Virus record (IMG/VR): IMGVR_UViG_3300017605_000586 | Location: 1 to 36,708 of that record | Strand: one strand, 5' to 3' | Source: a virus | Length of the DNA: 36,708 nucleotides | Shown here: positions 12,604 to 33,443 of the stretch, piece by piece | Layout: every line of letters starts with the position of its first letter | Position numbering within the stretch: the stretch's first letter is position 1 | Made by a program: the position numbers and the translations under genes | Notes under the pieces: model-generated | Database searches by the model: none | Told to the model about the DNA's origin: nothing | Seen by the model: only the letters and a program-made list of their open reading frames with translations

Positions 12604-14643
12604 CTATCCGTTCCAGAACCGGCCCGAACCCATTTCGTCTCGGAGCGCGGGAACCACGGCGCCACGGACCCAACGCTCCGTTTCGCGCGCGTCCATCCTC
12701 GGGTCGACCGAAAGGCTTATCGACACGTTGTTCGTCGTGGACCCTCGAGCGGCTCCGGCCGAGCGCCCCTCGGAGAGCGAGTCGAGGAGTTGCTCGAAAC
12801 GGTCGTTGCGCCGGACGGAGAGCACGCGCTCGCCCCCTGCAACCAAGGCGTGCAGCGAGTCCCGGCCTCGCATGCCGTTCGTGACGAGTCCCGTGGCCGC
12901 TCCGACGGGCCCGACCTTACCGCCCGCCTCGAACAACGAAAAGACTTGGGAGAATATGGCTCCGATGGGCCCGAGCGCGGGCGCGGCAAGCGACATGACG
13001 GACGCGACCATACTCGCCATGAGGTTTCGGAATTCGCGCCCCGTGAATCCGGCCGCCAACGTTGCTCCGCGTAGGCTCGTGCTCAAGACGTCGAGCGCCG
13101 TACGGAATCCCTCGGTCGCCTTTTTGTTCTTTTCCATCGCGAGCTCGGCGGGCGTCTTGCCGGGTTTCTCGTCGGGCTTGACGTCGCCCTTTGTCTTGCG
13201 GATATTGCCGCGCATTTCCTGCCAAAACTCGTCGTTTTCCTTTTTCGCATCCTCGAACGCCTTGTCCTGTAGTTGTTCCTTGGTCGGGAGCCCGGCGACC
13301 GGGACTCCGGTTATCGTCAAGCCCGCCGTGTTATGAGCAATGGCCGCCGTCTCGAACGCGAGCCGCTCTTGTTCCTGCCGCTCGCGTGCCTTGGTCGCGT
13401 TCGCTACGACCGTATTGTAGTCGCGCTCGTTCGCCTCCCGCTGCCGCGCTGCGGCCTCGATTGCCATTTCGTTCGCCATGCCCTTTGGAATCATGGGGAC
13501 GATGGATTCGAGCGGCGACTTAGCCGGAGACGACCCGGCGGTCGTGGAGCGGTTCTTGTCGAACGGGTCGGTTATGTCCCGACTAAGCCAAGCAATCAAC
13601 GACGTAAACATTTTGACCTTCGGGTCGTTCACAATCTGCAATAGCTTTTTGTGGAATTCGTCGAGCTTGGTAACAATCGGCTCGACCGACACGCCGGCCA
13701 ACGCAATCCATTGGAGCTTGAACGCCTCGACCGTCGCCTTGAGCGAGTCGAGGCTTTCGTCGAGCCGCGTTAGCGTTTTCTCCGTGGCCGGGTCGAGCAC
13801 GGACCCGCGCCGGTTCGCGGCCTCCGCCATATCCTTGAGCGAGGCGGTTAGAATCGAGACGGACCGCGCGCCCCCGCGACCGAAAAAGTCGAACGCTGCC
13901 GCGCTCCGCTCGCTCGCCGTCCCCATGTTCCGAATCTTGGTCCCGACCTCGTCGAGCACGTCCCCGGTCGGGCGAAGCTCTCCGTTCGTATCGCGAATGG
14001 AAATGCTCAACCCCTCGAACGCGGCCACGGCATCGGGCGCCCCTCGAGCGGCGTCCCCGAGGCGTCGAACGAAAAAGTCGACGGCGGGCCGTATGTCGTC
14101 GAAGCTCTTGCCTTGAGCGACGGCGGCCTCTTTGAGTCCGGCGAGCTCGGCGCTCGACAATCCCGTTTGGTCCTTGAGAATGTCGAGCTTCTCGGCGTAG
14201 TTGGCGGCCTGTAGCGCGGCCGTGGCGATTGCCGTTCCAACGGCCGCCGCGACTACGGCGACTCCGGCTAGCGCGGCGACCATCGGCGGGAGCTTCGAGG
14301 CGAGTCCCGTCGCCGCTTGCGCGAGCGTGTCAATCCGGGCCGCTGCCGAGCTCGCCGGGCCCGGTAGCGCGCTCATGGCGGAGGAAACCTCGGAGAATCC
14401 CGACTTGAGGTTCGAGACTCGGTCCTTGAGGTTCTTTGTATTGTTCTCGAGTTGCTTGCTCGCCTTGCCCGCTGCATCGAGTGAGCGTTTCATGTCCTCG
14501 ATGCGGGCCGCGGTCGTTTGGCTAACGTTCCCGTTCGCCTGTATGGATTTGACGAGGAGGTCGAAATCGCGGCGCGCTTGGGCGACGGCCTGTGCATTCT
14601 TATAGGACGTCTCGATTATAATTCCGAACTTAGCGTCCGCCAT
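12604..14643 (-). CDS. Tail tape measure protein
   Basis: A 679-residue protein with the tape-measure profile. The N-terminus is long and helical with heptads (QARRDFDLLVKSIQANG, KQLENNTKNLKDRVSNLKSG). A hydrophobic stretch around residues 116-145 (PPMVAALAGVAVVAAAVGTA) is typical of the part inserted in the membrane during DNA ejection. Ala-rich helices follow and a basic C-terminus. It lies after the two chaperone frames and before the distal tail gene, the standard order. At about 0.15 nm per residue, a rule known for this family, it would set a tail near 100 nm, hence siphovirus morphology. The start at ATG 14643 overlaps the end of the chaperone frame. Confidence 0.9.
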   Translation of the reverse strand: MADAKFGIIIETSYKNAQAVAQARRDFDLLVKSIQANGNVSQTTAARIEDMKRSLDAAGKASKQLENNTKNLKDRVSNLKSGFSEVSSAMSALPGPASSAAARIDTLAQAATGLASKLPPMVAALAGVAVVAAAVGTAIATAALQAANYAEKLDILKDQTGLSSAELAGLKEAAVAQGKSFDDIRPAVDFFVRRLGDAARGAPDAVAAFEGLSISIRDTNGELRPTGDVLDEVGTKIRNMGTASERSAAAFDFFGRGGARSVSILTASLKDMAEAANRRGSVLDPATEKTLTRLDESLDSLKATVEAFKLQWIALAGVSVEPIVTKLDEFHKKLLQIVNDPKVKMFTSLIAWLSRDITDPFDKNRSTTAGSSPAKSPLESIVPMIPKGMANEMAIEAAARQREANERDYNTVVANATKARERQEQERLAFETAAIAHNTAGLTITGVPVAGLPTKEQLQDKAFEDAKKENDEFWQEMRGNIRKTKGDVKPDEKPGKTPAELAMEKNKKATEGFRTALDVLSTSLRGATLAAGFTGREFRNLMASMVASVMSLAAPALGPIGAIFSQVFSLFEAGGKVGPVGAATGLVTNGMRGRDSLHALVAGGERVLSVRRNDRFEQLLDSLSEGRSAGAARGSTTNNVSISLSVDPRMDARETERWVRGAVVPALRDEMGSGRFWNG

Positions 14644-19383: not shown

Positions 19384-20364
19384 TTAGAGAACGGTTCCGA
19401 GAACGTAAATCGAGCGAACCTCGGCGGCAAACTCAATCAACGCCTGGAACGCCTGTACCCATGTTCCGCGCCGCATCGGGTCGTCGAACGACGTCGCTCC
19501 GTAGTAGAGCGGGCCGGGCGACACGCCGTAATTGCTCGTCTCGGGCCCCGGGTCGTCCTCGTTGTAAACGATGTACGCCTCGTCGGCGTCGAAAATGTAC
19601 GTACCGATGGGCGACAACGCGCCTCCGACCGTCGGCGACATGCCCGTCGTCGTGGCCGCCTGTACGCCCTTGGCGAACCGGACCCGGTCGACGTCAAAGA
19701 ACGCGGCGATAAGCGGCTCGTTGATTGCCCGCCCCGTCGCTTGCATGACGTACTTTATGGAGTCCTTGACGATTGCGCCGGCCGAGCCCGTCGTCTCCCT
19801 CGTAATGAGGTCGTCGGCGACCGAGCCGGTAAAGACGATTTTGTTCGCCTCGCGCCCGGTATACTTGAGCGTTTGCGCCTTGCCCGTCATAACGTTGGTA
19901 CGAGGCGCGGGCGCCGTGGAATTCCACTTGTTCGCGCCTCCGAGCGAAGCGTCCGGCGTGATTGCGTCGACGATAGCCTCGGCGCGGACCTCGCGCGCGA
20001 GCCAAACCTTCTCCGTCAACGCCCGTGCGCGCCGGAACGTCAACGGCGTTCCGGGCCCCTGCATGGCGAGAGCTTGCTTTTTGGTGATTAGGCTTTGAAA
20101 GCCCCAATCCTCCGCCATGAACGGAATTGCCTTGCCGCGCATCGAGACGGTCGGGTATCCAATCTCGTCGCCTCCGCGCGCGTCGACCGCGCCCAATGTA
20201 TTGAGCGCCTCGTCGACGTAAATCGACCCGTTGTAGCCGTCGAACGGCACGTACGGGAACAAATCGTCCGCGGCAAAGTAACGCGCGCGGTTCTGCATGT
20301 ACGCCAGTCCAAACGACGTCATAAGCTCGTCGACCGGCGCTACGAACCGAACGTCTCCGGGCAT
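19384..20364 (-). CDS. Major capsid protein
   Basis: A 326-residue protein in the capsid position, after protease-scaffold and decoration genes. The N-terminal part (RARYFAADDLFPYVPFDGYN, then GSIYVDEALNTLG) matches the x-A-D-x-(L/V)-F-P-x-V-P-(V/F) plus G-x-(I/Y)-Y pattern of phage capsids, and the long helix VWLAREVRAEAIVDAI fits the spine helix of the HK97 fold. Length is typical. ATG 20364 has a strong ribosome site, GGAGGATAGAGG. The C-terminus is GTWVQAFQALIEFAAEVRSI followed by YVLGTVL. The upstream protease suggests processing or scaffold clearance; no cleavage site is obvious. Confidence 0.85.
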   Translation of the reverse strand: MPGDVRFVAPVDELMTSFGLAYMQNRARYFAADDLFPYVPFDGYNGSIYVDEALNTLGAVDARGGDEIGYPTVSMRGKAIPFMAEDWGFQSLITKKQALAMQGPGTPLTFRRARALTEKVWLAREVRAEAIVDAITPDASLGGANKWNSTAPAPRTNVMTGKAQTLKYTGREANKIVFTGSVADDLITRETTGSAGAIVKDSIKYVMQATGRAINEPLIAAFFDVDRVRFAKGVQAATTTGMSPTVGGALSPIGTYIFDADEAYIVYNEDDPGPETSNYGVSPGPLYYGATSFDDPMRRGTWVQAFQALIEFAAEVRSIYVLGTVL

Positions 20365-22245: not shown

Positions 22246-22533
22246 CTACTCGTACGTCGCCGCAACGTGCGGCGCGGTCGTGGTCGAGAATTCGACGAAA
22301 CACGCGGTCGAGAACACGACCCCGCGCGGGAAAACTAGGTGCGTTCCTCCAGCGGCGCCGAGACGCGCCACGGCCTTAACCGCGCCGCTCGCGTCTATCG
22401 AGTCGTGGCAGAGAATGACGCCGGCCGCCGTGTCGTTGAACGTGAGCGAGTAGAGGATTAGCTTGGCCGCTGTCTTGAACGACCCTTGCGTCGTTCGGAC
22501 CTCGCCAATGCCGGGTTGTACGTCCGAGCTCAT
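22246..22533 (-). CDS. Small virion-type protein, tandem copy A
   Basis: A 95-residue protein, paralogue of the next gene. It starts at ATG 22533 overlapping the portal stop (ATGA) and reads MSSDVQPGIGEVRTTQGSF to FPRGVVFSTACFVEF and a final ATYE. The pair arose by local duplication and has diverged to roughly 35-40 percent identity by eye, with the ends best conserved. Two related copies often form a mixed surface assembly or have split roles. No enzymatic motif is visible. Confidence 0.7.
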   Translation of the reverse strand: MSSDVQPGIGEVRTTQGSFKTAAKLILYSLTFNDTAAGVILCHDSIDASGAVKAVARLGAAGGTHLVFPRGVVFSTACFVEFSTTTAPHVAATYE

Positions 22534-24713
22534 GCGGCCTCCTGTTGGTCGGCCCGCCACGAGAACACGGCCGTACAGCGGCATCGGGGCGGGTAGTCGC
22601 AATTCGGGTTGGGGACTTGGGAGCCGTAGTCCGCGAGGTCAAGCTCCGCGCCGTCCATTGCCGCGCACGCATCGCACGTCCCGTCGTCCATGATTGCCGA
22701 GTAATAGACGGCCGCTATTTGCGATTGCATCCGGTCCGCTTGCTCGACGCGCCCGGTCGTAAACGTTTGGTTGACCGTCCCGGCGAGGTCCGCAATCACG
22801 AGCGGAGTTGACAACGCCGTGAGCGCCGCGAGTACGGCCGCGCGCTTGTCCTCGGTCGGTAGCTCTTGGTCCTGGGCAAGCTGCCCGGCGTTGATTGCCT
22901 CTTGCCAAATGGTCGTAGTCATGTCGAGAGCTTGCCGCTGCCCTAGCCGCTTGACCCATCGCGATTGCGCCGGGGTCGCGTCGGTCGACTCGGGGTCGAC
23001 GGCCTTGGTCGCCTTGGCGCGCTTCGCCTCCGCAACGACGCTCGAGCGGCCCGTCGCGTAGACGTCCGCGAGCCCGGCCGCGAGCGCGTCCCCGAGCTCG
23101 GCGAGTTGCGGTTTCGGTATCTGCCCAAGCGCGAGTTGAGCCTCCGTCGCCGTCGATACCGAGTCCGCGAGCGCCGCAATCTGTAGCTTTCGGATTGGTA
23201 GGACCTCGCGGTAGTAGAGCCGTTTTGGCTCGTCGTCGAGGTACGCCTTCATGGCTAGCCAATCCGTGCCGACCTCGTGGGCCAGCGGGTCGCGACGGAG
23301 GAACGGGCCGGGATAGGAGGCTTTTCGTAACCTCTTGGTCGCCTCGTTCGGCGGCCTATTGTCGGTTGAGCCTTTCCCTCCGTTCGCTCCGTCTCGACCC
23401 GCGTTCGCCGCTGCATCCGCGGTCGCCTTGGCGTTCGTTTCCGCTAGCGCCGCTGCCCTGTCCGCCGGCGACGGCTCGAGCGTGGACTCGTCCTCCGGGG
23501 TCAACCCCAACCGCTCGCGGAAAAAGACGCGGAGCGGTTGGTCGATGCGGATTAGACCGGCCGCGACGAGCGGGCCCATAAGCTCCGCGAGCCGGTCCGG
23601 TTTCATTTGTAGGAACGACTCGCACGCGAGCCGCGGGTAAAACTCTTGCTCTCCGAAATTCGTGTCTATGAGGTCTACGATTGCTTGTTCGGTTAGGACG
23701 TCCTCGAGGTCCTTCGCGACGCCCTGGTACGCTAGGAGCATCATGTCGCTTTGCACGGAGCCGACCGCGAGCGCGCCCTTGTTGCCCGTGCCGAGGCTTT
23801 GGAATTGAGCCGCGGCCGTCCGCTCTATTTGTTGGTCGTGGTACTCAATCGACGTTATAAAGTCGGCCGCGTTCCCGCTCGGAAATAGCGCGTTGAATTC
23901 GTACACGGACGGGATAATCAACCCCTCCCGCTCGTGCATCCTCCAATTGGACATTGCCGACTTGCCCGACTTGGATTGGTCCGGCGTCGGGTTCACGTTC
24001 TCGCGCGTTTGGAGCCAGAAAATTCCGCCGGCGCGTTCCTTTTGTATCGCGTCGAACTTGACGAGGTCGCGCTTCACGCGCCAATGCCAATGGGCCGGGC
24101 GGAGAATCGACTCGCCCCAAAAATTGTCGCCCTCCCGGTTGAACGACCAAACGACGAGCTTTGCGGCCGGGATGCGGACGTCGCCCGAGGTGCCGTTACG
24201 TTTCTGGACGTATTGAACGACCGAGTCGAGTTTCGACGGGCCGCTCTTGGTTAGGTCGAAATAGCGAAGCGAGCTCGCCTTGCGTAGCTCGAGCGACGCG
24301 TAGACTTGCTTCCGGTCGCGCGTGCGGTATCCCCAAACCTTTTCGACGACGGCCGGGCCCGCCCATATCGCGCTCGAGAGGTTGCGGAGCGTTTGGCCCC
24401 AAGGCGTCGACCCGCCGTACCCGTAGGTTTCGCCCGGCATGAGGACCGACCGGACAAAGGCGGCATGTTCCTCGCCCTTGGGGTTGTCCTCGGCCGGGTC
24501 GATGCGCCATTGAGCCGCGCGGAGCGCGTGCAGGAGGTTGTTTATCGTCGCTCGGACTTGGGCGTCGCCCCGGCGCATTTGCTCGTACGTCGCGACCGCG
24601 GATTGAGGCGACGCGAGGTCGACGTTGTATTCGTCCGACCTCCACAATTGGGAGCCGACGAGGTTAAGCCCGGAGCCGCCAATCGGGTTTTGTATGTTCG
24701 CGAGCAACGGCAT
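22530..24713 (-). CDS. Portal protein fused to a MuF/SPP1 gp7-like domain
   Basis: A 727-residue protein. The N-terminal 430 residues resemble DUF935-type portals: YEQMRRGDAQVRATINNLLH with the helical wing, GWG-type linkers, WHWRVKRDLVKFDAIQKERA in the stem, and RLACESFLQMKPDRLAELMG. The portal is the dodecameric channel through which DNA enters and leaves the head. After an Ala/Asp-rich linker (about 435-480), the C-terminus has a head-morphogenesis domain ending in CDACAAMDG, then NCDYPPRCRCTAVF (cysteines near 680, 683, 705, 711 and 713), the zinc-type signature of SPP1 gp7/Mu gpF proteins. These are normally separate genes. It starts at ATG 24713, right after the terminase stop. Confidence 0.85.
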   Translation of the reverse strand: MPLLANIQNPIGGSGLNLVGSQLWRSDEYNVDLASPQSAVATYEQMRRGDAQVRATINNLLHALRAAQWRIDPAEDNPKGEEHAAFVRSVLMPGETYGYGGSTPWGQTLRNLSSAIWAGPAVVEKVWGYRTRDRKQVYASLELRKASSLRYFDLTKSGPSKLDSVVQYVQKRNGTSGDVRIPAAKLVVWSFNREGDNFWGESILRPAHWHWRVKRDLVKFDAIQKERAGGIFWLQTRENVNPTPDQSKSGKSAMSNWRMHEREGLIIPSVYEFNALFPSGNAADFITSIEYHDQQIERTAAAQFQSLGTGNKGALAVGSVQSDMMLLAYQGVAKDLEDVLTEQAIVDLIDTNFGEQEFYPRLACESFLQMKPDRLAELMGPLVAAGLIRIDQPLRVFFRERLGLTPEDESTLEPSPADRAAALAETNAKATADAAANAGRDGANGGKGSTDNRPPNEATKRLRKASYPGPFLRRDPLAHEVGTDWLAMKAYLDDEPKRLYYREVLPIRKLQIAALADSVSTATEAQLALGQIPKPQLAELGDALAAGLADVYATGRSSVVAEAKRAKATKAVDPESTDATPAQSRWVKRLGQRQALDMTTTIWQEAINAGQLAQDQELPTEDKRAAVLAALTALSTPLVIADLAGTVNQTFTTGRVEQADRMQSQIAAVYYSAIMDDGTCDACAAMDGAELDLADYGSQVPNPNCDYPPRCRCTAVFSWRADQQEAA

Positions 24714-26477
24714 TTAGGCGTAGCCTCCTCGAGTCCGTGGGAACGGGCGCATCGGGAGTCCGGCCGGCGCGAGGTCGTCCTCGTCGTCGTCGTCCAATAC
24801 CGACGGCTCGAGCCTTGACGCTTGCGGACTCGCTCCGAGTGGCGTAAAGACGTCGCCCGAACGGTCGAAATTCCCAACCCACTCGCTCGTGGCGAGGTAG
24901 CGGAACCCGTCGGCGTAATGCGACGTCATGTCGTGAACGGGAACGTTAGACCGAATTTCCCCCGTCTTGGGGTCAATCGGTAAACGGTAGTTGGATAGGG
25001 CGTCGAAAAAGTCCGCCTCGAGCTCCTCGCACTCCGCGGCAAACTCGACCATTCCGTTTCGGAGCGCCCAACGGAGGATGCGGTTTCCTTGCGTCACGCT
25101 GCCCGGGCCCACGACGCGCGGGTAAACCCAATGCACGAACCCGGCCGTTTGATACCAGGACAACGGCGGAATGCCCGAACCGGACTCCTCATTCGCGGCC
25201 GAGGGGTCCGGCACGAGCACGACTCGCGCGTCGCCATGCTTGGTCGTGTAGTCGGGAGGGTATAGGCCGGTCAACGCGTGAATCCGCTGGACGAGTCCCT
25301 CGGCGTTGTCCGGCGCGTTGCGATGGGCGCCCGCGTACGCGCCGATAACGCGTAGCTTGCGGCCTCCGGCAAACTGCCCGATAACGCCGGCCGTCTTGCG
25401 CTCCATTCCAAAATCGAGCCCGACCCGGACCTCGAGCGTCGGGTCGTAGAGGAGCACGCCTTTCGGCCGAACGTGGACGTCGCGGCGAAACTCGCGGAGG
25501 ATGCGCCCCTTTTTGGAACGCTGGTAGTTGCGCCCGTACTCCTGTCCGATGCCCTCGTCGTCGAGCGAGGCCGTCGCGCCGACGAACCAATCCGACACGA
25601 AATCCCCATAGCGGTCGCGTTCGAGCTCGCCCTCGGTCGCGCGAATCCCGACCGTATGGCGCGGTTCTTCCTTCCAATCGCATTCCTCGAAGCGCCAACC
25701 CCGAGGCCGAGCCTTTTTGATTCGGGCGAAAAGGTTCGTCGTCCCGTTTACGGTCGACATGTAAACCTTGCCGAACTTGCACGCCGGGTCGATTGCGATA
25801 TGGATTGCGTCGGCCCATTCCAAATGGGCGGCCTCGTCCACGAACACGCGCACGAACCCGCCCCCTCGCCCGGCGTCCTTGGTCGGCGCCCGGCCCATCG
25901 AAAACGAGTCGTTCTCGCGGCACGTCGCCGACATATACGTAAAGTCGACATGCTTGCGGACGTGGTCGGGGAGCCGCTCCCACGAGAACCGCATCCGGCC
26001 GAACATCGAGAAAACTTTCGGGTTCTTGCCGCCGTCGTCGACGTGGTCCTCGCTCTTGGAAATGAGGAGCGACGAGTAGCCGCGAACGAACATGAGCGCC
26101 CATAGGTTGTAATGCATGGCGACCCACGTATGCAGCATCCGGCGGGACTTTTCGTCGTGGACGTTGTGTGGCTCGTTCCGTCCCGTGATTGGGCACGGCC
26201 TCGGCGCATCGAGCGTGCGAATCCAACGGAGCACGTAGGACGGCCCGCCGGGTTCGTGCCAAGGCGTCGAGGGCGTGTCCGCCGGATGGAACGGCGCCGG
26301 TAGGTACTCGACCGCTCCGCCGCGCTCCTCGTCTTGGGTTAGGCAGTAGTTGAATATGAAATACGCGGCAGCGTGGGGGTTGAAACCCGGGTCGCATAGA
26401 CGCGCCTCGAGTCGCAAGTCGCCCCTCGCCGCATGCGCGGCAACGTCGGACGCGGTCCTAGCCGATTCGCCGACCAT
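24714..26477 (-). CDS. Terminase large subunit
   Basis: A 587-residue packaging motor with an ATPase and a nuclease domain. The P-loop position has KSRRMLHTW (residues 110-118), a degenerate Walker A, and VFVDEAAHLE (211-220) is a clear Walker B with the catalytic glutamate. The nuclease has D-x-(D/G) residues in VGLDFGMERKTAG (D355), VPDPSA (D424) and DMTSHYADGFRYLA (D523), the usual RNase H-like triad. It pumps DNA into the prohead and cuts the concatemer. I start it at ATG 26477, with GAGG 8 nt upstream and a 20-nt overlap with the small subunit; an ATG at 26528 has no ribosome site. Confidence 0.92.
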   Translation of the reverse strand: MVGESARTASDVAAHAARGDLRLEARLCDPGFNPHAAAYFIFNYCLTQDEERGGAVEYLPAPFHPADTPSTPWHEPGGPSYVLRWIRTLDAPRPCPITGRNEPHNVHDEKSRRMLHTWVAMHYNLWALMFVRGYSSLLISKSEDHVDDGGKNPKVFSMFGRMRFSWERLPDHVRKHVDFTYMSATCRENDSFSMGRAPTKDAGRGGGFVRVFVDEAAHLEWADAIHIAIDPACKFGKVYMSTVNGTTNLFARIKKARPRGWRFEECDWKEEPRHTVGIRATEGELERDRYGDFVSDWFVGATASLDDEGIGQEYGRNYQRSKKGRILREFRRDVHVRPKGVLLYDPTLEVRVGLDFGMERKTAGVIGQFAGGRKLRVIGAYAGAHRNAPDNAEGLVQRIHALTGLYPPDYTTKHGDARVVLVPDPSAANEESGSGIPPLSWYQTAGFVHWVYPRVVGPGSVTQGNRILRWALRNGMVEFAAECEELEADFFDALSNYRLPIDPKTGEIRSNVPVHDMTSHYADGFRYLATSEWVGNFDRSGDVFTPLGASPQASRLEPSVLDDDDEDDLAPAGLPMRPFPRTRGGYA

Positions 26478-26877
26478 TGCCGTTACCTCGCAAGAGAACA
26501 AGCCCGGCGCTCCCGCCTTGGCGCGCATCGGCCGCGAGGAGCTCGCGGAGCTTCGCGTCCGCCTCCTCGCGTACCCGCTGGAGTCGCTCTATTTCCTCGC
26601 CCTCCGCCGTCGCGGCCGAGCCCTGGACCTCGCCGTCCGCTAGCGGGAGGAATTGGCGAGCGTCCGAAAACGTTACATGCTGGAGTTTCGGTACGGTCCG
26701 CTCGAGTAGGAGCCGAGCCGCGGCGACCCATTGCTTTCGGTCCGCGTTCTCGTCGAGGAGTATTTCCTCGAGCCGTTGAATCGCAATCAACGACAGCGAG
26801 AACACGCGCTCGAGGGCCCGGCCCGCGTTCTTTCGGTCCGCTGGAGTCTTGGGGTCGTAGACGTACGCGTCGCTCAA
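26458..26877 (-). CDS. Terminase small subunit-like protein
   Basis: A 139-residue mostly helical protein immediately upstream of and overlapping the large terminase. ERVFSLSLIAIQRLEEIL, then ENADRKQWVAAARLLLERT and KLQHVTF resemble the helical core of small terminases, which recognise the packaging site as a ring. The last third is charged and coiled (EGEEIERLQRVREEADAKLR) with a basic tail, which could bind the large subunit. No clear helix-turn-helix is visible. Start ATG 26877 overlaps the PA14 gene stop (ATGA). Confidence 0.7.
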   Translation of the reverse strand: MSDAYVYDPKTPADRKNAGRALERVFSLSLIAIQRLEEILLDENADRKQWVAAARLLLERTVPKLQHVTFSDARQFLPLADGEVQGSAATAEGEEIERLQRVREEADAKLRELLAADARQGGSAGLVLLRGNGNGRRIG

Positions 26878-28738: not shown

Positions 28739-29187
28739 GCCTTTTGGTCGACCGGGCCAAGCTCGACGGGCCAATTCGGCGCGTCGGCCTTGTCGTTGAG
28801 GAACGCTTGAACGCGCCGGAGCCGGTCCTCGTAGTCTTGGACTTTGACGAACAAGGACCCGTTGGAACGCCGAACCTCGAGTAGCTCCCGCTCGAGCGAC
28901 TCGACGCGCTTGGTCGCTTCAACCACGGCCGACCCGTCCCGGTACGCTTCGAGCTTCGCCTCGGCCTCGCGAGCGCGCGCGAGCACGGCCGCGGTCGTCC
29001 GCCTTTGCTGTCCGACCTCGTCCTCGAGCGACCGCGCGCGCCGTTGTTCGACCGAAAGCGCCGCGACGGTCCCACGTAGCTCGTCCTGGAGTCGGCGCAT
29101 CGTCTCCGGCATGGTCGCGGCAATGGCTAGAATTGCCTCGTTGAGTGAGTCCGCGTCGATGGAAATACGAATGTCCGAGCTCGCCAT
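28735..29187 (-). CDS. Coiled-coil protein
   Basis: A 150-residue protein dominated by a coiled coil from about residue 25 to 130 (RRLQDELRGTVAALSVEQRR, ARSLEDEVGQQRRT, VESLERELLEVRRSNGSLF). It begins MASSDIRISIDADSLNEAIL and ends ELGPVDQKA. ATG 29187 shares a base with the stop of the methyltransferase gene (TAATG). No enzymatic motif is present. It might scaffold other proteins or be a helper of the methyltransferase; both are guesses. Confidence 0.7.
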   Translation of the reverse strand: MASSDIRISIDADSLNEAILAIAATMPETMRRLQDELRGTVAALSVEQRRARSLEDEVGQQRRTTAAVLARAREAEAKLEAYRDGSAVVEATKRVESLERELLEVRRSNGSLFVKVQDYEDRLRRVQAFLNDKADAPNWPVELGPVDQKA

Positions 29188-30467
29188 TATCCCCCCTCCT
29201 CAAGTCGCGCCATTAGCTCCCGCCATGCCGTTGCCGCCACGACAGGAACGACTCCGTTGCCGAGTCCTCTAAGTCGGTCCATCCGATTGGAAACCCCATG
29301 AGCCACTCGACGAACCGCGGGTTCAAGGTCCGGCGCTCGGTCGAGGACGGCCCGCCATGCTCGAGCGTCGAGGGGTCCGGGCGGGAATCGCGGCACGTCG
29401 CATCGGTCAAGCTCGTTCCCGGGTTCGACGCTCCGCCCCTCGACCCGCTCGACTTGGAATCCCCCTCCGTCGGCGTCGGCCACGCTTGCGCCGTTCGTCC
29501 AAGGGTCGGCGTGAACGGCCGGTTCCCTTTCGCTCGTTGCTCCTCGCTCTCCCGCTCGTGCGCCTCCGCGCTCCGGTTTTGCTCCGTTGCCGCTGGAGTC
29601 GGCCATAACGCTTTCGCTATCCGGTACGCTTGGCCCGTCAAGAGCGGCTCGTCCGACCTCTCGTTCCCCCTCGACGTATGCCCGCCCGTCGCCGCTCCCG
29701 GCGTTTGCCATAAGCTCGCCGTCGCTCCCAAGTCCTCGCCCCCCGAGCCGCGCGCCGCTCTCCCCTCCCGAGCCTCCGCTCCCCCTGTCGGCGTCTTGGG
29801 CGTCGGCCAACGCGTCGCGACGTTCTGCAATTGGTCCGTCGCATGCGTCTCGTTCACGTTCGGGCCCTTGTCGTCCCGCGCGGCCGGCGTCGGCCAATGC
29901 CTCGTGACGCCCGACAGCGAGTCGCCCCTCGACCCTGGATGGTTCCCGCACGACTCCGAGTCCTCCGCGCGTGCGCTCGGCCAAGACGAATAGCCGTCGT
30001 CGCAAATGGGGAGCGCCAACCTCGGCCGCTGAGAACACGCCCCATTCCGCATCGAACCCGAGTCCGGCCAGCTCTCGCAGTATTCGCCCCATGTCTCGAA
30101 CAAGCAAACCTGAGACGTTCTCCAAAAAGACGAACCGAGGCTCAACGTCGCGAACGATGCGCGCGACCTCGGGCCACAAGTACCGCTCGTCGAGCTCGCC
30201 GCGCTTCGCTCCAGCGGCGCTAAACGGTTGGCACGGGAAACCCGCCAAGACGCAATCAACGACGCCACGCCATACTCGCGCGTCAAAGGTTCCGAGGTCG
30301 TCCCAAATAGGCGCCGAATCCAAGGCGCCTTGTTCCATGCGCGCGACCAAAACTGCCGCCGCATATGCTTCCCTCTCCACGTAACAAACCGTCCTCGCTC
30401 GAGGTTCGGCGAGCCGGACTCCAAGCTCGAGCCCGCCAATCCCGGCGCATAGAGCCAAGACATTCAC
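29187..30467 (-). CDS. DNA (cytosine-5) methyltransferase
   Basis: A 426-residue enzyme with the full motif set in order: motif I NVLALCAGIGGLELG (residues 2-16, S-adenosylmethionine binding), motif IV GFPCQPFSAAG (catalytic cysteine 79), motif VI FLENVSG (E116), motif VIII RRRLFVLA (156-163) and motif X GLGNGVVPVVA (about 401-411). It transfers a methyl group to C5 of cytosine in a target sequence, probably to shield phage DNA from host restriction. The target-recognition region (about 165-375) is low-complexity, Gly/Arg/Glu/Asp-rich with five L-A-D-A or similar words. Start is GTG 30467, behind GAGGAGGGGGC and overlapping the upstream stop; no partner endonuclease is nearby. A second long frame overlaps almost the whole gene. 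Confidence 0.92.
   Translation of the reverse strand: MNVLALCAGIGGLELGVRLAEPRARTVCYVEREAYAAAVLVARMEQGALDSAPIWDDLGTFDARVWRGVVDCVLAGFPCQPFSAAGAKRGELDERYLWPEVARIVRDVEPRFVFLENVSGLLVRDMGRILRELAGLGFDAEWGVFSAAEVGAPHLRRRLFVLAERTRGGLGVVREPSRVEGRLAVGRHEALADAGRAGRQGPERERDACDGPIAERRDALADAQDADRGSGGSGGESGARLGGRGLGSDGELMANAGSGDGRAYVEGEREVGRAALDGPSVPDSESVMADSSGNGAKPERGGARAGERGATSEREPAVHADPWTNGASVADADGGGFQVERVEGRSVEPGNELDRCDVPRFPPGPLDARAWRAVLDRAPDLEPAVRRVAHGVSNRMDRLRGLGNGVVPVVAATAWRELMARLEEGG
29213..30463 (-). CDS. Overlapping +1-frame protein with WPTP repeats (possible dual coding)
   Basis: A 416-codon frame, +1 relative to the methyltransferase, starting at ATG 30463 (4 nt inside the methyltransferase GTG and sharing its ribosome site). 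It reads as a protein type I recall from many phage and bacterial contigs: SSFWRTSQVCLFETWGEYC then ESWPDSGSMRNGAC, five repeats of the W-P-T-P kind (HWPTPAARD, RWPTPKTPT, LWQTPGAAT, LWPTPAATE, AWPTPTEGD), and a C-terminus LNPRFVEWLMGFPIGWTDLE. Each part lies opposite a methyltransferase motif: WPTP over L-A-D-A, GFPIGWTDLE over the motif-X approach. It may be a real overlapping gene or an echo of conserved methyltransferase codons. Long shadow frames are common in this GC-rich DNA, so openness alone is not evidence. Confidence 0.35.
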   Translation of the reverse strand: MSWLYAPGLAGSSLESGSPNLERGRFVTWRGKHMRRQFWSRAWNKAPWIRRLFGTTSEPLTREYGVASLIASWRVSRANRLAPLERSAASSTSGTCGPRSRASFATLSLGSSFWRTSQVCLFETWGEYCESWPDSGSMRNGACSQRPRLALPICDDGYSSWPSARAEDSESCGNHPGSRGDSLSGVTRHWPTPAARDDKGPNVNETHATDQLQNVATRWPTPKTPTGGAEAREGRAARGSGGEDLGATASLWQTPGAATGGHTSRGNERSDEPLLTGQAYRIAKALWPTPAATEQNRSAEAHERESEEQRAKGNRPFTPTLGRTAQAWPTPTEGDSKSSGSRGGASNPGTSLTDATCRDSRPDPSTLEHGGPSSTERRTLNPRFVEWLMGFPIGWTDLEDSATESFLSWRQRHGGS

Positions 30468-30970
30468 GCCCCCTCCTCGCTCGACGGCTCCGGCGTGGGG
30501 TCCCGCTCCGAGCCGGTTTGTTGCATTACCGGAACGGGCTGTACCACGGCCGGAGCCTCGAGCGCGTGTATCGCCGGGTTGTCGGTTGCCGGACTTGCGG
30601 CGACACGGTCGTCGCGCAACGCGTTCCGTGGGTCGTTGACGTAGTACGCCGCGCCCTCGGCCTCGGGAATGAACGCCGGCTCGTCGTAGAACCGGCCCGT
30701 TACCGGCATGAGCCCGGCCTCGACGTCGCCATGCGCGAGGACGAACGAACGATACCCGCGCTTCCTCCACGTCCGGCGCGCGGCCTCGGCGTGCGTCTCC
30801 CCAACAACCACGTCCCGAGCATTCCATCCGCGGAGCGCCGACCGCGCGTGCGGGTTCCATCCGATGCGCCGGCCGAACCGAACCCGAATCGCGAGTAGCT
30901 CGACCGCCCGCCTCCACGCCTTGCGCCGCTCCGCCCGCGTGCCGGGCTTGCCGTCCTGGGCGCGCGTCAT
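30464..30970 (-). CDS. Hypothetical protein upstream of the methyltransferase
   Basis: A 168-residue protein starting at ATG 30970 (ATGA overlap upstream) and ending in the GTGA overlap with the methyltransferase. The N-terminal half is basic (TRAERRKAWRRAVELLAIRV, ARRTWRKRGYRSFVLAHGDV), the middle has AYYVNDPRNALRDDR, and the last 40 residues are Pro/Ala/Glu-rich. The basic half could bind nucleic acid. No family is recognised. Confidence 0.7.
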   Translation of the reverse strand: MTRAQDGKPGTRAERRKAWRRAVELLAIRVRFGRRIGWNPHARSALRGWNARDVVVGETHAEAARRTWRKRGYRSFVLAHGDVEAGLMPVTGRFYDEPAFIPEAEGAAYYVNDPRNALRDDRVAASPATDNPAIHALEAPAVVQPVPVMQQTGSERDPTPEPSSEEGA

Positions 30971-31514: not shown

Positions 31515-33443
31515 CTAAACTCCTAGTGTTCCTTGGGTTTCCATTGGTTCGGAGGTTTGGACAAGGGCGGGTTGTCCGGCCTGTCCGCGTAGTCCGAGGC
31601 GCGGAGTCGGTTTTTTGCCCTTTCGGCCGTCCCCGAGGTCGCCGACTGGGACCGCCCCTATCAACGCGGCATGACGCTTGACCGTGCGCGTTGACAGTCC
31701 GGTCGTTGCGGCGAGTTGGTCGAGGGTAGCTCCGCCGGAGGGTCCAGCGGCGACGAGGGCGACTCGGACGGCCTCGACGTTCTCGGCCTTTCGTAGCTCG
31801 GGGTCGAAATCGTCCGTGACGACGAACCCGGAGTCCTTGGGTCGCTCGAGGTAGATAGGTGCGATGGGGGAGGCGTTGTTCGTTTTCGGGAACCGGAGGG
31901 CGTAGACGTTGGACGAGGGGTCGCTCTTGACCTCGCGCACGACGGCTAGGCGCATGAGGGACTTACAGTCGGAGCTCATGCGGGAATGCCCGCGCAACGA
32001 GTCCATGTCGTCGCGTTCCTTACCGTCGGGGTTTCCCTTGGGTTCATGGTGGAGCGGGAGGAGCGCGGTTCCTGTCTCGTAGGAAATCTCGTCGAACCGG
32101 CGGAGGACGCGGCCGAAATCGGGTCCCTTGTTCTCGTCGGCGGTATGGGAGCGGGAGAGGGCGTCGATAAAGACGACGTCGAGCGCCTCGTCGGTACACC
32201 AACGGGCGAGGGCGAGGTAGTCGTCGGAGAGCATGTCGACCGCGCCCTTGAGGTCGGGTCGTGCGACGACGTGGACGCACGCGCCTCCCGCGCTCGTGCC
32301 TGTATGGTGCCGGAGCTTGTCGACGCGTTGTTGGAGCCAATAGGCGTCGGTTTCAAGCTCGAGGATTCCGACGCGGACGGGCCCGCCCTCGGGCGCTTGG
32401 AGTCCGAACAAACCCTCTCCGCGGGACCAAGCGTCGGCGAGTTGGAGGAGCAACCAAGTCTTGCCAATTCCAGGGCGGCCGTAGAGGAACGCAAGCTCGC
32501 CGGCGCAAATGAACCCGTTGCCGAGTAACGACCTCGGTTTCTTATACGTTCGGCGCATGAATTCGTCGAGGGTGACGGAGACATGCGAGAAGCGTTGGAC
32601 GGGGAGCACGTACGGGGGAGCGTCGTTGGCGAGGGACTCGAGGTCGTCGCGCGTCTTGTCTTGGAGCCAGTCGGAGACGTCGCCCTTGTCGGGGACGCCC
32701 GGTAGCTCTAGGAGTTTGACGTTCTGTACGTGGGGAGCGAGCGCGTCTCGGACCTCGAGGGCGTGTTTCCTACCGGGCGGGTCGTTGTCGGGGATTATGA
32801 CGACCTCGGCCGCGCCCGTGAGTTGGTCCGTATAGGTCGGGAGCCAAGGGGAGGCCGCGCCTTGCGCTGCCGTGGTCGCGGTCAACCCGATGTTGGCGAG
32901 GTTGTCGGCGTCCTTCTCGCCTTCGACGACATAGATTCGATGCCCGAGTTTCCGTGCGGCCTCGACCTCGGGGAGCCGGTAGAGCACGCGCCTAACTCCG
33001 TCGAGGTTGTATGTAAAGGGTTCGCCGATGCCGGGGTCGGCGTTGGTCGGTCGGCGCTGTCGGAAATTCTTGTGCTCGTCTCGGAGGACTTGGTAGACGA
33101 GGACGTTTCGTTCGTTGACGTAGTCGTAGGTTTTGGTAATACGGCCGAACGGCGGACGGGCCGGTCCGGGCGCCTTGGCGGGAGTCGCGCCCTCCTCTTG
33201 GGAACCGTTCGACCGGGACCCGTTCTCGAATAGGTCGGTCGGGGACGCGTGGAGCTCGGCGAGGATGCGCTCGAGCGAGCACCCGGCGCGGCAAACGACG
33301 AGGACCTTGGCTCCGTCGGCGGATTGCTCGACGTGGAGCGAGGGGTCGTTGTCGTCATGGGCCGGGCATCGGACTCGGAATCCGCGCCCATCCTTGAGCG
33401 GGTTATCGAAGCGTGCGAGAAACGAGTCGAGCGCGAACCCCAA
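31515..33443 (-). CDS. Primase-helicase: zinc finger, TOPRIM and RepA-like AAA domains
   Basis: A 642-residue replication protein. Residues 26-55 hold CPAHDDNDPSLHV and CRAGC, a CHC2-type zinc finger for primer-site recognition. The TOPRIM core has IYVVEGEKDADNL (E174) and VVIIPDNDPPGRK (D219, D221) for primer synthesis. The ATPase has Walker A GRPGIGKTWLLLQLA (322-336), GILELE, and Walker B DVVFIDALSR, as in RepA/DnaB-type helicases. Near residues 575-605, LDQLAATTGLSTRTVKRHAA is a helix-turn-helix. The start is TTG 33443, with AAAGGGA upstream. It is transcribed leftward away from the early cluster. The C-terminal 25 residues overlie one copy of the control-region 13-mer. Confidence 0.92.
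   Translation of the reverse strand: MGFALDSFLARFDNPLKDGRGFRVRCPAHDDNDPSLHVEQSADGAKVLVVCRAGCSLERILAELHASPTDLFENGSRSNGSQEEGATPAKAPGPARPPFGRITKTYDYVNERNVLVYQVLRDEHKNFRQRRPTNADPGIGEPFTYNLDGVRRVLYRLPEVEAARKLGHRIYVVEGEKDADNLANIGLTATTAAQGAASPWLPTYTDQLTGAAEVVIIPDNDPPGRKHALEVRDALAPHVQNVKLLELPGVPDKGDVSDWLQDKTRDDLESLANDAPPYVLPVQRFSHVSVTLDEFMRRTYKKPRSLLGNGFICAGELAFLYGRPGIGKTWLLLQLADAWSRGEGLFGLQAPEGGPVRVGILELETDAYWLQQRVDKLRHHTGTSAGGACVHVVARPDLKGAVDMLSDDYLALARWCTDEALDVVFIDALSRSHTADENKGPDFGRVLRRFDEISYETGTALLPLHHEPKGNPDGKERDDMDSLRGHSRMSSDCKSLMRLAVVREVKSDPSSNVYALRFPKTNNASPIAPIYLERPKDSGFVVTDDFDPELRKAENVEAVRVALVAAGPSGGATLDQLAATTGLSTRTVKRHAALIGAVPVGDLGDGRKGKKPTPRLGLRGQAGQPALVQTSEPMETQGTLGV

Follow-up and report, generated by a model that had tools for sequence, protein, structure and literature searches.

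The locus and its two reading frames

The window analysed here is the whole 36,708-nucleotide stretch of IMG/VR virus record IMGVR_UViG_3300017605_000586. Its portal (22530-24713), terminase large subunit (24714-26528), major head (19384-20364) and tape measure (12604-14643) genes indicate a tailed phage. Downstream of a primase/helicase gene (31515-33443) lies a gene for the catalytic chain of a C5-methyltransferase, here called M, at positions 29187..30467 of the minus strand. M runs for 426 aa from a GTG at 30467 to a stop at 29187, and profile searches matched it to PF00145 (E=4.7e-31) and phrog_363 (E=7.4e-61). The open reading frame listing extends M back to a GTG at 30917; the start was taken as 30467 because the ribosome site and the relatives favour this position.

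Nested within M, in its +1 frame, is a second reading frame of 416 aa, here called W (29213..30463, minus strand; ATG at 30463, stop at 29213), which matches phrog_1008 (E=3.5e-31). It comprises an N-terminal part, five xPTP modules and an end that resembles motif IX. The W ATG lies 4 nt downstream of the M GTG, and the two frames have a common Shine-Dalgarno sequence, AGGAGGGGG (30469..30477, minus strand), whose AGGAGG is 4 nt from the GTG of M and 8 nt from the ATG of W. The TGA of an upstream open reading frame (30466-30464) sits between the two start codons, so that M and W are positioned for coupled initiation. Among the phage genes checked, no partner endonuclease for M and W was recognised. 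The phage context, with its portal, terminase, major head, tape measure and primase-helicase genes, would fit an orphan methyltransferase that guards phage DNA.

All positions that follow are on the minus strand. M carries motif I (LALCAGIGGLELG, 30420..30458), motif IV with the catalytic Cys (GFPCQPFSAAG, 30210..30242, including PCQ), motif VI (VFLENVSG, 30108..30131, including ENV), which is overlapped by the W element FWRTSQ, motif VIII (HLRRRLFVLA, 29979..30008) and motif X (LRGLGNGVVPVVAA, 29232..29273), all on one chain. This chain lacks a conserved variable, target-recognition region and motif IX. The variable region (29328..29978) holds the xPTP modules in the W frame and LADA echoes in the M linker, and the motif IX-like element (LNPRFVEWLMGFPIGWTDLE, 29267..29326) is in the +1 frame, overlying M residues HGVSNRMDRLRGL.

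The W repeats start at 29896 (WPTP), 29809 (WPTP), 29710 (WQTP), 29605 (WPTP) and 29482 (WPTP), and overlie the M residues LADA, LADA, MANA, MADS and VADA, in that order. The TGG codon is constant across the W repeats, while the preceding M residue changes (L, L, M, M, V); the repeats therefore reveal W as the frame that is being held. An earlier note, made from the sequence of the window, had described an intact M frame with a 416-codon +1 frame behind one ribosome site, and five WPTP-like repeats and an end element that overlie elements of M. The coordinates confirm both descriptions.

Evidence for dual coding

In prokaryotes and their phages, genes seldom share long conserved overlaps on the same strand, and such cases are usually disputed. 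When the codons of the window M were shuffled synonymously, the +1 frame acquired a mean of 5.0 stops, and only 0.05% of shuffles had none. The shuffled genes retained a mean of 0.85 xPTP motifs, compared with five in the real sequence, a number reached in none of 2000 shuffles.

Three sets of phage loci were gathered, one with W, one with M and one with just motifs I and IV of M as the query. W occupies the +1 frame in nearly all loci of the three sets, at GC contents down to ~38%. In the 38 loci found by M only, where 137 stops would be expected across the W region, none was seen; this count is biased towards zero because the boundaries of the region came from the W open reading frame. A recount therefore used 59 full-length phage genes found by motifs I and IV only (mean GC 48%), with the region fixed from M alone. 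It gave 38 stops in the W frame, against 426 expected after synonymous shuffling; these amount to about one per affected locus and are mostly W's own terminator. Over motifs V-VIII, 228 nested loci have no W-frame stop, where 482 were expected, and loci that have the modules in the M frame carry +1 stops over the same motifs in 15 of 28 cases. The +1 frame of E. coli dcm has 14 stops.

Scored with a hidden Markov model of W that had been trained on other loci, the true frame outranks each codon permutation in 36 of 38 loci. In 41 of the 59 loci, a W ATG with a Shine-Dalgarno sequence in front of it stands at a fixed position (expected 12.9, maximum 22), which argues for separate initiation of W. 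The DNA of this locus is genuinely dual-coding, and W is not an echo of M. The earlier note had raised true dual coding as one of two outcomes, and both the stop counts and the dual-frame dN/dS support it. As it had predicted for that outcome, distant relatives with an intact M show no stops in the +1 frame, and variation is reduced under the WPTP and GFPIGWTDLE elements.

Selection in the two frames

Selection was compared between the frames along the gene. Across 63 pairs, substitutions before W fall mostly at third positions of M codons (59%); in the variable region they move to the first positions of M codons (42%), equivalent to third positions in W. Dual-frame dN/dS was computed over 194 pairs of relatives; these pairs overlap and are not independent, so the values describe a pattern, without formal significance: 0.18 for M and 1.12 for the +1 frame before W, 0.22 for M and 0.43 for W over motifs IV-VIII, 1.29 and 0.22 in the variable region, 0.34 and 0.20 over motif IX, and 0.19 for M and 1.57 for the +1 frame after W. 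This contrast means that, from motif VIII to motif IX, the sequence is conserved as W and is carried along as a neutral passenger by M. In these relatives W is under purifying selection and the variable region of M is neutral. The N-terminal part of W, which overlies motifs IV-VIII, is also conserved; it has no counterpart in canonical enzymes.

Relatives with the W modules in frame

Several actinophage loci carry the features of W in frame within methyltransferase genes. The single-chain forms, Mycobacterium prophage prophiT49-1 gp22 and Gordonia phage Keitabear gp5, encode motifs I-VIII, LLPTP modules, LNAAF(S/A)EWMM and motif X, in that order and in one frame. In the split pairs, Wizard007 gp76/gp75, RedFox gp42/gp43, Kingsley gp70/gp71 and EdgarPoe gp79/gp80, the first gene stops after motif VIII; modules, motif IX and motif X are on the second gene, which is in the +1 frame. 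The xPTP modules, LNxxFxEWMMG and motif X are co-framed in all of these single-chain and split loci. The actinophage forms constitute one clade (SH-aLRT 98), within which single, split and hybrid forms interchange repeatedly, although the rooting is too weak to single out an ancestral architecture. The end motif is also in the M frame in locus L090, SchottB and a Streptomyces plasmid locus. In L090 (L090:2977-4059), from a low-GC phage, the M frame has taken in the W modules and motif IX, so that a natural single-chain form also exists beyond the actinophages. In Keitabear (L218:763-1539), a LAGLIDADG endonuclease gene is annotated inside the open single-chain methyltransferase frame, between motif VI and the motifs that come after it.

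Comparison of W with the C-terminal halves of the actinophage proteins by hhalign gave a probability of 98.5% (E=3e-15). The C-terminal part of the single-chain relatives aligned in register with Deinococcus Dcm (64%, E=6.6e-5). This part needed a separate comparison, as hhalign with full-length single-chain relatives covered motifs I-VIII of Dcm and nothing more. The W end resembles canonical motif IX to a modest degree, matching a Deinococcus Dcm at 10 of 22 residues. W is unrecognised by Pfam and NCBIfam and has no PDB relative by sequence; when the C-terminal halves were used for profile searches of the PDB, no methyltransferase was returned. The best structural matches of a single-chain relative's model are M.HhaI and M.HaeIII, with the modules modelled at low confidence. 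An AlphaFold2 model of W alone is mostly disordered (mean pLDDT 51.5), and only the motif IX region is confident; neither model shows a folded recognition domain. The alignments with these in-frame relatives identify W as a homologue of the C5-methyltransferase half that holds target recognition and motif IX. On account of this homology, W most likely belongs as a subunit to the enzyme of which M is the catalytic chain.

Distribution, modules and annotation

Hundreds of phages and prophages share the arrangement. When bacterial genomes were scanned for the W end motif, 80 loci in many phyla were recovered, with motifs I-VIII upstream in every one and a freestanding W in none, as far as loci selected by the W motif can reveal. 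A first classification counted 72 of these 80 as nested and having their motif X in frame with M. Under a stricter rule, 153 of 200 loci on viral contigs and 73 of 80 on genome contigs are nested, and most of the others are left unassigned. Nested forms occur in phages of Synechococcus, Acidovorax, Acinetobacter, Pseudomonas, Microcystis and Paenibacillus, and nested relatives are present on Enterobacter and Citrobacter plasmids. The W modules, usually 30-50 aa in length, form recurring kinds, whose combinations differ among unrelated loci.

W-type proteins are already present in databases. PHROG_1008 (labelled 'DNA methyltransferase') and PHROG_27243 are sequence families that contain W, and their labels are silent on the protein being a +1-frame product without catalytic motifs. 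The earlier note was right that such proteins exist as separately annotated hypotheticals: examples include PHROG_1008, XAI96804.1 and gp50 of Paenibacillus phage Diva. In Diva (gp49/gp50, KP296791), the W homologue gp50 is annotated as 'g49 internal gene', with neither a function nor an explanation. In Mycobacterium phage XFactor (L206:2143-2871), the W frame alone is annotated, as gene 67, and the methyltransferase frame is unannotated.

Individual loci depart from the common layout. A phage methyltransferase locus (L064:1900-3320) has an insert downstream of motif VIII that encodes an HNH endonuclease in the third frame; stops break M across the insert and W is open throughout, the reverse of the ShiLan element considered below. 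One locus (L015:2765-3005) has a single in-frame M stop just past PCQPFS, with M and W otherwise intact; sequencing error, a decayed M and recoding are candidate causes. A similar lone M stop is found ahead of motif X in L099. In a Paenibacillus polymyxa plasmid methyltransferase (L205:2599-2746), the motif IX element occurs once more beyond the W stop, suggesting that the end of W was duplicated.

A probable two-subunit methyltransferase and its alternatives

The locus very probably encodes a C5-methyltransferase of two subunits, in which the gene for the catalytic subunit also holds, in its +1 frame, the subunit for target recognition. In M.HhaI, the small domain contains the variable region and motif IX (PMC3404938). 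The two frames split at this domain boundary, which casts M as the large domain and W as the small one. M would thus be the large catalytic domain, with motifs I-VIII, a neutral spacer and motif X, and W the small domain, with variable recognition modules (the xPTP repeats) followed by motif IX. W would be started independently, here via the ribosome site that M also uses, and its translation in the window phage is likely. It would then pair with M to form one enzyme, contributing motif IX and DNA target recognition. Each xPTP module is probably a recognition unit, and the tandem modules perhaps confer several specificities. W would accordingly set which sites in the phage DNA become methylated, and this methylation presumably protects the phage DNA against host restriction.

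We lean slightly towards a broader proposal as well, that the locus belongs to a very widespread class of C5-methyltransferases in phages and prophages. In this class, the recognition domain would be carried in the +1 frame as tandem, swappable modules, open to gain, loss and shuffling with the catalytic chain untouched; this would make the enzyme multi-specific and allow fast retargeting against host restriction.

W might instead be a real overlapping gene with a separate function, such as anti-restriction, regulation or DNA binding, that merely shares its DNA with M. Dual coding alone is silent on the role of W, and a conserved N-terminal part without a canonical counterpart would suit such a gene. 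Against this, the W modules and end motif occur in frame inside methyltransferases or in their second subunit, motifs I-VIII lie upstream in all 80 of the bacterial W-motif loci, and the conserved variable region missing from M is supplied by W. A separate function is therefore improbable. The earlier note's suggestion of an anti-restriction partner is likewise unsupported, given the homology of W to the recognition and motif IX half of C5-methyltransferases.

Less probable still is a ribosomal +1 shift after motif VIII, which would fuse motifs I-VIII of M with the modules and motif IX of W. The order of the resulting elements would be that of the single-chain relatives, and the loci with the end motif in the M frame (L090, SchottB and the Streptomyces plasmid locus) could be cited in its favour. 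A late shift would not require the W frame to be open far upstream of motif VIII, as it is in all 228 nested loci, and would leave unexplained the strong enrichment of the start preceded by a Shine-Dalgarno sequence; the fusion product would also lack motif X. These observations make a shift very unlikely.

The other outcome raised by the earlier note, that a whole protein type is a frame echo, protein-like only through M conservation and GC-richness, has a negligible chance of being correct: permuted M genes do retain some W model score (for example, 55 of 172 bits in locus L089), and the scores of E. coli Dcm and Deinococcus Dcm are not above their permutations, but stops are absent at 38-50% GC, W has a dN/dS of 0.22 in the stretch that is neutral in M, and there are homologues in which the modules are in frame, so that codon permutation, dual-frame dN/dS and homology all reject it. 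A homing-endonuclease insertion was also considered and rejected, as W overlies conserved motifs and has no HNH or LAGLIDADG match.

Implications

The preferred reading, of a catalytic chain and a nested recognition subunit, combines a rare kind of overlap, backed by independent tests on hundreds of loci, with a clear division of tasks between the frames. It accounts for many WPTP-repeat proteins now listed as 'hypothetical' and for families that carry the wrong label 'DNA methyltransferase'. If it is correct, many annotated C5-methyltransferases have no recognition domain on their own chain, and their specificity could not be read from that chain. The recurring modules form a catalogue that could be matched to target sites. 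Since codon-optimising M alone would destroy W, negative results from heterologous expression may merit re-examination.

Comparison with known systems

A C5-methyltransferase with motif IX on a separate polypeptide is already known from M.EcoHK31I and M.AquI. What is new here is that the arrangement spans many phyla, that its modules are tandem and exchangeable, and that it explains PHROG_1008 and the WPTP 'hypothetical proteins'. A search of the open-access literature found no account of how common the arrangement is, of its tandem modules, of a neutrally evolving spacer in M or of what the WPTP proteins are.

By motif layout, the closest known enzyme to M and W is M.EcoHK31I (YGGCCR). Lee, Kam and Shaw reportedly found in 1995 that its smaller polypeptide (~176 aa) is encoded in another frame within the gene of the larger, much as W is nested in the +1 frame of M. 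The larger polypeptide of M.EcoHK31I has motifs I-VIII and X, and motif IX occurs only on the smaller (PMC3404938). The window has the same division, with I-VIII and X on the larger chain and IX on the smaller. In M.EcoHK31I, however, the larger subunit is the one to which the recognition domain has been assigned; here, selection puts recognition in the nested W. Unlike its counterpart, W is 416 aa long, has five tandem modules, starts together with M and is encoded in a phage genome.

In M.AquI, the alpha subunit has motifs I-VIII and the beta subunit IX-X, so that motif X is on beta (PMC3404938). This split between VIII and IX is nearest to that of Wizard007 gp76/gp75 and RedFox gp42/gp43. 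A second subunit with both IX and X is found in the split actinophage loci and not in the window, where the catalytic chain keeps motif X and nearly all of W is nested in its frame-shifted sequence.

A concealed reading frame inside a phage methylase gene has also been described in ShiLan, where an out-of-frame HNH is a homing insertion that codes for an endonuclease (PMC11855218). The window resembles ShiLan in having such a frame. Unlike the ShiLan element, W is no insertion and has no HNH; it overlies the enzyme's own motifs.
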